This document shows positions 3,253 to 27,130 of a stretch of DNA of 36,793 bases, one piece after another. The first letter of the stretch is position 1; each line of letters starts with the position of its first letter. Origin of the DNA: Nitrospirota bacterium (lineage in GTDB: Bacteria; Nitrospirota; 9FT-COMBO-42-15; HDB-SIOI813); assembly GCA_016212215.1 (NCBI GenBank), contig JACRGV010000145.1, positions 1-36,793 on the forward strand, read 5' to 3'. The notes below the pieces were generated by a model that was not told the origin of the DNA, ran no database searches, and saw nothing but the letters and a program-made list of their open reading frames with translations. The position numbers and the translations under genes are program-made.

Positions 3253-3330
3253 CAGCTGGACAGTAATGTCCCGCCTATCCTCGTGAAATTGGATAGGCGG
3301 GGTTTTCTTACCCCGCCGGAGAGGATTTTT
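3253..3330. repeat. R4 triple-hairpin repeat, copy a
   Basis: About 80 bp closely matching 23044-23120. Three successive hairpins are visible: GCTGGACA-GTAA-TGTCCCGC (one mismatch), CCTATCC paired with GGATAGG, and GGCGGGG-TTTTCTTA-CCCCGCC. The last two share two G residues and so cannot both form completely. The right end supplies the purine-rich GGAGAGG that serves as ribosome-binding site for the next gene. The left end follows the R2 terminus ATGAAAAT. Role is inferred: 5' leader structure, attenuator or mobile palindrome. Confidence 0.8.
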
Positions 3331-15390: not shown

Positions 15391-15720
15391 AAGACAGTGA
15401 TTAGTGATTAGTGAACAGTGAATAGTTAGAGGCAAGAGGCAAGAAATAAGAAGCAAGATGTAAGAACTTAAAATCCCCATCACACGGATCCTCTATCATA
15501 AGGGGAGATTTCACTTAGTTTCCCTCCCCCTTGAGGGGGGATGGTAAGGGTGGGGGTGAGCTATGGTATATTTCTGATGAACCATCATGAAACGAGGTTT
15601 CACAAAAGGCAATGAAAACCCCACCCTCACCCGGACCCTCTCCCTGAGGGAGAGGGTGCTTAGTTTATTCCCTCCCCTTCAAGGGGAGGGTTAGGGTGGG
15701 GATGGGGTTATTTTTGGATG
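15391..15720. repeat. Repeat mosaic between gyrB and gyrA
   Basis: The whole gap is repeats. An R3/R5-like run (AGTGATTAGTGAACAGTGAA, then AGAGGCAAGAGGCAAGAA) fills 15394-15470. A decayed R1 copy spans 15473-15566. An R2 module at about 15568-15618 has stem TGAAAC-GAG-GTTTCA (15588-15602). A well-preserved R1 copy at 15617-15710 is nearly identical to 33-126. The right boundary TTTTTGGATGAA merges into the gyrA ribosome-binding site. No gene fits in this stretch. Confidence 0.85.
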
Positions 15721-20360: not shown

Positions 20361-20384
20361 CCCTTCGACAAGCTCAGGGTGACA
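20361..20384. repeat. R6 short hairpin repeat, copy a
   Basis: ACCCT-TCGACAAGCTC-AGGGT; the partner at 25353-25378 reads ATCCT-TCGATAAGCTC-AGGAT. The second stem position changes from C-G to T-A with pairing kept, and the loop is nearly constant. Similar CTTCGACAAGCTCAGGG units are, to my knowledge, dispersed in many environmental bacterial genomes. Confidence 0.6.
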
Positions 20385-20391
20385 TACTTAT

Positions 20392-20424
20392 GTGTGCCCC
20401 GCTTTACTTAACAGCGGGGCACAC
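20392..20424. terminator. Hairpin between convergent pepA and csp genes
   Basis: Perfect 12-bp stem GTGTGCCCCGCT/AGCGGGGCACAC with loop TTACTTAAC, located between the 3' ends of two converging genes. There is no U-run on either side, so it is at best a weak intrinsic terminator or an mRNA end-protecting stem for both transcripts. Confidence 0.55.
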
Positions 20425-20433
20425 AGCCATGCG

Positions 20434-20634
20434 TTATATTTTCACTACATTTTTTGCATGAACACCTTTTGGGCCATCCGACACTTCGAATTCTACCTCC
20501 TGGCCTTCGCCGAGGGTTTTAAATCCGTCGCCCTGAATTGCGGAAAAATGTACGAACACATCCTCGCCATTTTCCTGTTCAATGAACCCATAGCCCTTTT
20601 TGTCATTGAACCATTTGACACGACCTTTTGGCAT
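20434..20634 (-). CDS. Cold-shock domain RNA chaperone (CspA family)
   Basis: Single-domain 66-residue OB-fold protein that binds single-stranded RNA and DNA and melts RNA secondary structure. It begins [16 protein letters not shown] with RNP1 (KGYGFI) and has RNP2 VFVHF. The aromatic surface residues (W8, F9, Y15, F17, F27, H29, F30) are in place. A strong ribosome-binding site AAGGAGG precedes the start by about 9 nt. A complete terminator-like hairpin with a U-run sits directly upstream of that site, and a plausible promoter lies further upstream. Csp proteins are known to act as antiterminators, so self-regulation through this leader is a reasonable hypothesis. Whether it is induced by cold or constitutive cannot be read from the sequence. 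Confidence 0.96.
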
Positions 20635-20654
20635 TGCCTACAACCTCCTTTTCT

Positions 20655-20698
20655 CCAAAAATAAAAAACCGCAGAGGCCTGGAACTATCCTCTGCGGT
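20655..20698 (-). terminator. Intrinsic terminator or attenuator in the csp leader
   Basis: On the minus strand a perfect 10-bp stem ACCGCAGAGG/CCTCTGCGGT with an 11-nt loop is followed by TTTTTTATTTTT, a textbook Rho-independent terminator. It lies 114 nt past the stop of the minus-strand dehydratase gene and about 20 nt before the csp start. It may end the upstream transcript, attenuate csp, or both. Confidence 0.8.
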
Positions 20699-20759
20699 CA
20701 CCTATGGCCATACAAATATGGAAAAATACTACATCTCCTGCTTTGCTGCATGCGTATTT

Positions 20760-20788
20760 TTTTATCACATATTAATATATATCGTCAA
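20760..20788 (-). promoter_or_regulatory. Candidate sigma-70 promoter for csp
   Basis: On the minus strand TTGACG (20788-20783) is followed after 17 nt by ATAAAA. If used, transcription starts around 20750 and the csp leader is about 115 nt long, including the terminator-like hairpin at 20655-20698. Confidence 0.4.
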
Positions 20789-20813
20789 GAAAAAAATTAT
20801 TTTTAGTTGATTG

Positions 20814-22736
20814 TTAGTTCTCTGATAAATCTATTGAATCTAAAGGCCCTTCATCAACTACTTTTGTGTAATCACCATTAGTATAATGATTAATACACGT
20901 TTGCTGATACGTTGGGACTATATCCTTAATTCTTTCAATTATTAATTCTTTGTTTCCTCCAAGGGCATGAATCTTCAGATCTATCAATTTACTAAAAAAC
21001 CTTTTTGAATCCATTTCATCATAATTTGGGGTTGCCATAAATATCTTTTTATGAGAAGTATTCAACATCTTTTCATCTTTCTCAAACAGTTCTTCAAAAA
21101 GTTTTTCTCCAGGCCTTAGTCCTGAAAACGCAATCTTTATATCCTTTCCTGGAACTAGTCCTGACAATGTAATCAGGTTTTTTGCCAGGTCTACAATCTT
21201 TACAGGTTCACCCATGTCAAGTACAAAAACCTCTCCTCCGTTTCCTATATATGCTGCCTGGAGCACCAACTGTACTGCCTCAGGGATGGTCATAAAGAAT
21301 CGTTCAATATCAGGATGCGTTACTGTTATAGGCCCGCCTTTTCTGATCTGTTCCTTGAAAAGCGGAACAACACTTCCATTGCTGCCGAGTACATTACCGA
21401 ACCGCACTACAATAAATCTTGTGTCACTTTTTCTGTTAATGTGTCTTACAATCATCTCTGCTATCCTCTTGGAGACACCCATCATGCTGGTCGGATTAAC
21501 TGCCTTATCAGTTGATATCTGGACAAAGGTTTCAACACCAAATTGATCAACCATCTCAACAAGATTCCATGTTCCAAGGATATTATTTTTTACACTCTCC
21601 ACGACGTTATCTTCCATTAATGGGACATGTTTGTATGCAGCAGCATGAAATACAATCTCCGGTTGGTATTTCTTAAACTTCATGTAAAGCCTGTTTACAT
21701 CACAAATATCACCGATAACAGCGCTGAAAAAGTCCCTCGAATGTTTTAAACCGAGTTCGAGGTCAATCTGGTAAAGCCCATTTTCATTACGGTCATATAA
21801 CACAAGGTGCCGCGGGTTGTTTTTTAATATCTGCCTGCATAGCTCTGAACCTATAGAACCTGCAGCCCCTGTTACAAGTACCCTTTTTCCGCAAACAAGG
21901 TCTTTTATGTTTTCAGAGTTTACTCTTACAGGTTCTCTGAACAAGAGGTCTTCTACTGATATATTCCTTATCTGATTAACCGAAATATGGCCTGAGATAA
22001 CATCTTTCATACTCGGAAGGGTCTTTAGACTTATGTCATGTTTTTTACATTTATTCATTATAGTCCTCATCTGGGCAGGTTTTGCAGAAGGGATGGCAAT
22101 AATGATTTCAGAAGGGCTTACTTTTTTTATAATGTTGTTCAGATCTTTTCCTGTACCGAGTACAGGTACTGAATGTATCCCAAGTCCGGCCTTTTTTTCG
22201 TCGTCATCTATAAAACCTACCGGCAGGTAGTTATATACAGGATTTTTAAGCATATCACGAACGAGTAATTCTCCGGCATCTCCTGCCCCATATACCAGAA
22301 CCGGTTTTCTATCCATAAGACTAAACCTGTTCTTTTCTCTGATTAACCTGGTTATAAGCCTAATTCCACTCATGTACCCAATCAGTAATATGCAGTCAAG
22401 GATAAGTACTGAACGTGGATATAGATATAATCCCATGATAGGATAAAAAGCCAGGCCGGTAATAGCCGAACTAAGTACAACCCCTTTTATTATCTGGGAA
22501 AGGTCCCTGACACTGACATAACGCCAAAGTCCTGCATTAATACCAAAAAAATGAAACGTAATAATCCTTATCCCAAGGATAACAGGCAGGGTGAATCCAA
22601 TGAGATTAAAATATTCAGCCGGTACTGCCAACTCAAACCGGAGCAGATATGCTGATAGGTTAGCAATAATTATAAGCAGCAGATTAATGCCAAGCACTAC
22701 TATCCTGCGGTACTTCAGGAAAAAGGCAGTGAGCAT
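20814..22736 (-). CDS. Membrane nucleotide-sugar 4,6-dehydratase (CapD/WbpM/PglF family)
   Basis: Predicted inner-membrane enzyme that converts a UDP-HexNAc to its 4-keto-6-deoxy form for surface polysaccharide or glycoprotein synthesis. Four transmembrane helices fall within about 10-125. A first Rossmann domain (VYGAGDAGE, 148-156) and a second, catalytic SDR domain (TGAAGSIGSE, 289-298) follow. The catalytic pair is S417-M418 and K423 in SMMGVSK. The usual SDR Tyr is replaced by Met, as in the WbpM/FlaA1 group. STDKAVNPTS and YKHVPLMEDN are further family hallmarks. At 640 residues it is full length. Its start has AGGAG about 9 nt upstream on the minus strand. No other glycan genes are present in the window, so the exact substrate is not known. 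Confidence 0.93.
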   Translation of the reverse strand: MLTAFFLKYRRIVVLGINLLLIIIANLSAYLLRFELAVPAEYFNLIGFTLPVILGIRIITFHFFGINAGLWRYVSVRDLSQIIKGVVLSSAITGLAFYPIMGLYLYPRSVLILDCILLIGYMSGIRLITRLIREKNRFSLMDRKPVLVYGAGDAGELLVRDMLKNPVYNYLPVGFIDDDEKKAGLGIHSVPVLGTGKDLNNIIKKVSPSEIIIAIPSAKPAQMRTIMNKCKKHDISLKTLPSMKDVISGHISVNQIRNISVEDLLFREPVRVNSENIKDLVCGKRVLVTGAAGSIGSELCRQILKNNPRHLVLYDRNENGLYQIDLELGLKHSRDFFSAVIGDICDVNRLYMKFKKYQPEIVFHAAAYKHVPLMEDNVVESVKNNILGTWNLVEMVDQFGVETFVQISTDKAVNPTSMMGVSKRIAEMIVRHINRKSDTRFIVVRFGNVLGSNGSVVPLFKEQIRKGGPITVTHPDIERFFMTIPEAVQLVLQAAYIGNGGEVFVLDMGEPVKIVDLAKNLITLSGLVPGKDIKIAFSGLRPGEKLFEELFEKDEKMLNTSHKKIFMATPNYDEMDSKRFFSKLIDLKIHALGGNKELIIERIKDIVPTYQQTCINHYTNGDYTKVVDEGPLDSIDLSEN

Positions 22737-23035: not shown

Positions 23036-23120
23036 ATGAAAATCAGCGGGACAAGAATGTCCCGCCTGTCCTTATAGAAATGGATAGGCGGGGTTTTCTT
23101 ACCCCGCCGGAGGGGATTTT
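23036..23120. repeat. R4 triple-hairpin repeat, copy b
   Basis: After the boundary ATGAAAAT come GCGGGACA-AGAA-TGTCCCGC (23046-23065, perfect), CCTGTCC/GGATAGG (a G-T wobble where copy a has A-T) and GGCGGGG-TTTTCTTA-CCCCGCC (23087-23108). The end GGAGGGGATTTT supplies the ribosome-binding site of the next gene. Overall identity to 3253-3330 is roughly 85-90% by eye. Confidence 0.8.
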
Positions 23121-26868: not shown

Positions 26869-26955
26869 GGAGGGGTGACCGAGTGGTTTAAGGTGGCGGT
26901 CTTGAAAACCGTTGTGTGATGAGCACCGTGGGTTCGAATCCTACCCCCTCCGCCA
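26869..26955 (+). tRNA. tRNA-Ser (anticodon TGA)
   Basis: Acceptor stem GGAGGGG pairs with CCCCTCC before discriminator G and an encoded CCA. The anticodon loop is CTTGAAA in a GCGGT/ACCGT stem, giving TGA. A long variable arm and GGTTCGAATCC T-arm are present. A perfect hairpin ACATTGC-AAA-GCAATGT (26849-26865) lies directly upstream. Confidence 0.95.

Positions 26956-27037: not shown

Positions 27038-27130
<93 letters not shown>

Follow-up and report, generated by a model that had tools for sequence, protein, structure and literature searches.

Terminator hairpins in cold-shock gene leaders suggest transcription attenuation in a Nitrospirota genome and its relatives

Here, we examine the leader of a cold-shock protein gene (csp) in a 36,793-nucleotide stretch of DNA from a Nitrospirota bacterium (the window), compare it with the leaders of related and paralogous genes, and consider how such leaders might control their genes. 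The best explanation overall is probably that a hairpin just upstream of csp is the intrinsic terminator of an attenuator in the gene's own leader, and the sequences give us fair confidence that the csp leaders of this genome are transcription attenuators. The stop signals stay with csp and its sister genes carry a second version, which together indicate that control is probably exerted by read-through. We refer to the leader in the window as type A and to the second version as type B.

The window gene encodes a 66-residue cold-shock protein (20434..20634, minus strand; Pfam CSD, 3.4e-30), and its leader, promoter and hairpin, together with the gene upstream, all lie on the minus strand. The original prediction placed a 10-bp stem and a U-run shortly before the csp start, and we confirm it: positions 20698-20689 pair with 20677-20668 around an 11-nt loop (hairpin 20668..20698), the U-tract UUUUUAUUUUU occupies 20657..20667, and 22 nt separate the end of that tract (20657) from the csp ATG (20634). 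Scripted scoring gave -18.8 kcal/mol for the hairpin at 20699-20667, and when the 166-nt leader (20635-20800) was shuffled 2000 times with its dinucleotides preserved, only 1 shuffle contained a terminator of -15 kcal/mol or below. A G+C-rich stem with a U-tract directly after it has the sequence features of an intrinsic (Rho-independent) terminator. Folding of the whole 131-nt leader was unremarkable (z -1.77; 9 of 200 shuffles equally good), so the signal resides in the hairpin and U-tract and not in overall structure. Counting both strands, the window has eight terminator-like sites that score -12 or better, the csp-leader hairpin among them; a simple terminator scan with a loop limit of 8 nt did not return it, its loop being 11 nt. 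Between U-tract and gene lies the Shine-Dalgarno site AAGGAGGT (20643..20650), with AAAAGGAGGT invariant across five aligned type A leaders.

A sigma70-like promoter (20759..20788) lies where the original prediction had proposed one, upstream of the hairpin. It consists of a -35 element TTGACG (20788-20783) and an extended -10 element GATAAA (20766-20761) at 16-nt spacing, or, on an alternative reading by eye, TAAAAA (20764-20759) at 18 nt; the -10 ends 126 nt upstream of the csp ATG. An automatic promoter scan listed four sites, none of them at the csp leader. Transcription is predicted to start at about 20753, and would run for about 55 nt before meeting the hairpin and U-tract, where it would either stop or read into csp. 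The hairpin and U-tract (20698-20657) thus sit between the promoter and the csp start, the arrangement of an attenuator given the predicted start site, and the proposal that the hairpin is a premature terminator within the csp leader is supported by its sequence, by the promoter and by its conservation with csp.

Several further repeats and genes were seen in the window. Between csp and a convergent aminopeptidase gene (20362-20424) there is a palindrome, CCCTTCGACAAGCTCAGGG, and an inverted repeat, GTGTGCCCCGC/GCGGGGCACAC. Terminator-like inverted repeats occur in two pairs, the members of each nearly identical: one pair on the plus strand (3270-3301 and 23061-23092) and one on the minus strand (34-70 and 15619-15655). 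They are probably dispersed repeat elements. Two tRNA genes lie on the plus strand at 26869-26952 and 27038-27127.

Upstream of csp is a nucleotide-sugar epimerase/dehydratase gene (20814..22736, minus strand; Pfam Polysacc_synt_2/Epimerase), which lies outside the attenuator device. This gene reads in the same direction as csp and stops 180 nt short of it, so that the hairpin could serve only to end the dehydratase transcript, insulating csp from its neighbor and otherwise leaving it unregulated, as the original prediction allowed. To evaluate this reading we turned to five relatives of the family whose csp proteins are 82-95% identical to that of the window. None has the dehydratase as its upstream gene; by eye, three have a CxxCH protein (L084, L085 and L086) and two an ABC ATPase (L087 and L088), while on the other side of csp all five keep a convergent gene resembling the window aminopeptidase. 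The promoter and csp are retained in all five, TTGACG and the extended -10 being present at all six type A loci, and in four of them the hairpin persists behind these unrelated genes, with the U-tract recurring in the four other aligned type A leaders. The terminator is therefore conserved with the downstream and not the upstream gene, as expected of an attenuator. In the fifth relative (L085, G008:C167, leader before position 1500) the promoter and csp remain, but the stretch from the 5' arm of the hairpin to the Shine-Dalgarno site is missing, so that hairpin and U-tract are gone and the Shine-Dalgarno site is incomplete; this is either a natural deletion or an assembly error.

Leader statistics bear on the same question. 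We took 60 more csp loci in the phylum, chosen before their leaders were inspected, and compared them with control genes, defined as mechanical ORFs from the same loci with an upstream gap of at least 120 nt. A terminator 20-160 nt before the start occurred in 47 of 90 distinct csp leaders, as against 24 of 132 control genes and 15 of 450 shuffles; by the criteria used, the remaining 43 of the 90 csp leaders in the phylum have no terminator. Control genes behind a co-directional neighbor often carry a terminator too (20/78, versus 28/57 for csp), as a role in ending upstream transcripts would have it. However, where the upstream gene is divergent the csp leaders are still terminator-rich (17/31, versus 4/54 for controls), and in the window itself a promoter precedes the hairpin. 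The relatives' gene order and these statistics lead us to reject termination of the upstream gene as the sole role of the hairpin, and we consider it improbable that csp is merely insulated by it.

Within type A, what is conserved is the terminator and a GGCC segment, UAUGGCCAUAGGU (20700..20712, minus strand), which lies immediately 5' of the stem and is known from five sequences. RNAalifold on five type A leaders pairs this segment with the Shine-Dalgarno region (the pairing was mapped by eye), a modeled hint that it may do so in the RNA. Folding the five leaders at 37 and 10°C revealed no shared nascent structure or antiterminator. A covariance model of the type A leader, built from five sequences, matches 14 of 295 genomes: its five training genomes strongly, the L085 genome at 9.5e-5, and eight others outside the family weakly, at 6e-5 to 8e-4.

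The window genome contains three csp genes, all with the same order of promoter, terminator and csp. The leaders of the two paralogs (L002 and L003), in which a promoter is followed by a hairpin with a U-tract and then by csp, belong to type B. We aligned them with 22 other leaders picked by eye (alignment A1; L136, being much like L137, was omitted), and ran the covariance model from these 24 leaders against 295 genomes (135 genera) sampled in the phylum. At E <= 0.001 it matched 111 of these genomes, in 74 genera; in the window genome it finds the two paralog leaders only. On these sequence matches, type B is a second, widespread csp leader element besides the type A of the window. We inspected 90 first-phylum matches, six of them training sequences, and among the matches listed 85 of the 90 stand before a full-length csp. 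The others precede a csp with an early stop (L251, 51 aa), a csp with an internal gap (L235) and a csp cut by the contig end (L254). Two elements were seen before other genes: one (L239, G238:C76) before a 121-residue ORF with no Pfam match but with a Shine-Dalgarno site, and one (L261, G220:C5) before a DUF47/PhoU_div gene with no clear Shine-Dalgarno site. The model also matches 10 of 148 genomes of a second phylum, that of a Geobacter genome, where nine of the ten matches precede a full-length csp and the tenth (L280) a csp with an early stop. It matched none of 24 genomes of other named loci, in a search run without a positive control.

To define type B anatomy we counted pairings on 100 sequences (alignment A4, fitted to the terminator only), with shuffles that ignore relatedness, so that the shuffle fractions given here are not probabilities. 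A promoter stands at the alignment start in 81 of 98 leaders, 71 with a TG extension, compared to 133 of 980 shuffles; this fixed position puts the predicted 5' end of type B RNA at the first helix strand. Covariation supports two helices. The first is the terminator, in which 97.9% of cells are paired, with 49 double-change cells against 11.7 in shuffles (0/500 as good); its loop is U-rich and conserved, and the unfitted alignment A1 agrees on a covarying terminator. The second is a long-range helix between the predicted 5' end and the segment that precedes the Shine-Dalgarno site, with 87.1% paired and 58 double-change cells against 17.2 (0/500); slid by one column, it gave 65.4% and 45. Native strands of the long-range helix also pair better than swapped ones (-10.25 versus -8.32 kcal/mol; 0 of 300 permutations as good). 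With the first 24 sequences 26 of 500 shuffles were as good as this helix, which became clear with 100.

A conserved strand at the 5' end, RGAAGUUUUUG, is complementary to the 5' arm and loop of the terminator, CAAAGACUUUU, and is likely an antiterminator from its sequence, with mixed evidence from covariation; it is the least secure part of the type B scheme. The helix is 95.4% paired and has 12 double-change cells against 5.1 in shuffles (1/500), and its covariation score exceeds all 500 shuffles; slid by two columns, it keeps the same score at 60.9% pairing. Its 8-pair core, however, shows no covariation (1 double-change cell, with 10.2 in shuffles), both strands being nearly invariant. Swapping strands among 100 leaders left the native pairs slightly worse (-10.51 versus -10.80; 296 of 300 permutations as good), whereas among the 52 non-consensus leaders they were slightly better (34/300, and 47/300 for the 48 unique ones). 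In the second phylum, for the 7 of 10 leaders cut by script, 160 of 2000 permutations were as good for the long-range helix and 1039 of 2000 for the antiterminator. When the nascent RNA was folded up to the 3' arm of the terminator, the probability of the antiterminator helix exceeded 0.5 for 95 of 100 leaders at 37°C and for 92 of 100 at 10°C, and the mean pairing of a terminator-arm base with the 5' region was 0.96, falling to 0.46 when the 5' region was shuffled. As the antiterminator forms alike at the two temperatures (95 versus 92), equilibrium folding provides no temperature sensing, and we set aside an equilibrium thermosensor in type B as unsupported.

The same strand may be a protein-binding site. 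B. subtilis CspB has the consensus d(GTCTTTG/C) in the portion of PMC7825780 available to us, and of 86 type B leaders, 79 have GUUUUUG no more than 170 nt upstream of the start and two have GUCUUUG; by resemblance, GUUUUUG is a candidate Csp site. The sequences show a terminator, a promoter-like site, linkage to csp and, in type B, two covarying helices; termination in the cell, antitermination, and the signal and its sign are what we infer. In the proposed type B mechanism, RGAAGUUUUUG would be the first RNA out and would pair with the terminator 5' arm and loop, causing antitermination. In the cold, displacement of this strand by the terminator 3' arm would slow and csp would rise; Csp bound to the U-rich 5' strand would free the terminator and csp would fall, giving negative feedback. 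Once polymerase has read through, the long helix would bring the 5' end of the RNA together with the segment that precedes the Shine-Dalgarno site. For type A, the switch is probably likewise Csp level or temperature, by a route we leave unspecified.

Our confidence in the parts of this scheme differs. That Csp is involved in the attenuation at all strikes us as a little short of an even call, and that it favors rather than hinders termination as doubtful. The reverse sign, in which Csp melts the terminator hairpin and more Csp brings more read-through in a positive loop, would fit the U-rich, conserved type B terminator loop and the lowering of intrinsic termination, leader terminators included, by E. 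coli CspA, CspC, CspE and CspD, as described in the parts of PMC9765468 and PMC11648934 that we consulted. On the other hand, the strand that carries the Csp-like heptamer in type B is the one complementary to the terminator arm, and Csp bound there would favor the terminator. The accessible text of PMC8307031 reports that termination was favored by B. subtilis CspB and CspD at several sites, while at other sites these proteins lessened the loss of read-through. We regard melting as unlikely, and with a Csp-like site on the putative antiterminator strand, promotion of termination by Csp appears at least as likely as the opposite.

A different possibility is that the main effect of the structure is on the completed mRNA, through stability or ribosome access, with the hairpin a 5' stabilizer and not a working terminator. 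The covarying long-range helix of type B, which can form only after read-through, is in keeping with this, as is the RNAalifold pairing of the GGCC segment with the Shine-Dalgarno region. Yet a U-tract stands directly 3' of the stem in the aligned leaders of both types, a feature superfluous to a device that works only after transcription, and the outer helix of type A rests on five sequences; we give this reading little credence. Returning to attenuation, a fuller picture is one we offer tentatively, as possible. Type B may be an undescribed RNA family of two phyla through which csp regulates itself by attenuation. A single U-rich strand would serve both as the Csp site and as the antiterminator, with Csp and temperature competing for it, and the 5'-end helix would be a second switch on the read-through mRNA; type A would fulfil the same function as a distinct device specific to its family.

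Other csp leaders show related features. In leaders from 80 loci, mostly of other phyla, terminators occurred in 13 of 83, compared to 51 of 1660 shuffles, a suggestive excess by sequence. Terminator-like hairpins that differ in sequence from types A and B were observed in csp leaders of Rokubacteria/Acidobacteria type (L021, with two csp genes, L035, L046, L059 and L081). In Geobacter and relatives (L011, L016, L018, L020, L022 and L023), several csp leaders carry TTTCGGAAGTT or TTCGGAAGTTTTTG, motifs that resemble the type B 5' strand, but inspection by eye showed no terminator in them, and the type B model has no match in three of the genomes (L011, L016 and L022). A search by eye for a conserved leader peptide found none, AUG-UAG being present in L001 and L084 only.

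We compared these leaders with known systems. Rfam 15 has no family at gathering score in the csp leader region of the window, and at E <= 1 the window, L139 and L204 leaders gave matches far below cut-off only. When 20 loci were scanned whole, L139 scored 83.2 bits against the cspA family RF01766 (cut-off 78), the matching stretch taking in csp itself; the L139 leader alone, the L204 leader and the window leader have no RF01766 match at gathering score. The leaders tested thus match no known Rfam RNA family at cut-off. Among the titles and abstract openings we surveyed on csp attenuation and leader RNA, largely those of openly accessible papers, we recognized none that describes a csp-leader terminator. 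The premature-terminator survey of Naville and Gautheret (2010) likewise identified conserved leader terminators by comparing orthologues, and the main text as available to us (PMC2965389) contains neither 'cold shock' nor 'csp'.

Structured csp leaders are known from the E. coli cspA thermosensor (RF01766) and, in the sections of PMC3738593 that we consulted, the Agrobacterium cspA 5' UTR. The cspA element differs in being a longer RNA that is said to act on translation. Csp proteins of E. coli and B. subtilis alter read-through at intrinsic terminators, in either direction, and the targets described in the parts of those reports available to us (PMC9765468, PMC11648934, PMC8307031) are other genes and small RNAs rather than a csp-leader terminator. 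If Csp acts on the leaders described here, they would be a natural target for deciding whether Csp helps or hinders termination, a point on which work in E. coli and in B. subtilis disagrees. From the compact RNA of the type B leaders one would expect a short transcript ending at the terminator, a switch that sets read-through and possibly feedback. Type B leaders resemble the B. subtilis trp leader with TRAP, as presented in the portions of PMC3913778 and PMC4027176 that we consulted: terminator and antiterminator compete, and a bound protein releases the terminator, as in our type B model. The difference is that here, where regulation is deduced, the putative regulator would be encoded by the controlled gene itself or by a paralog, and temperature may also play a part.
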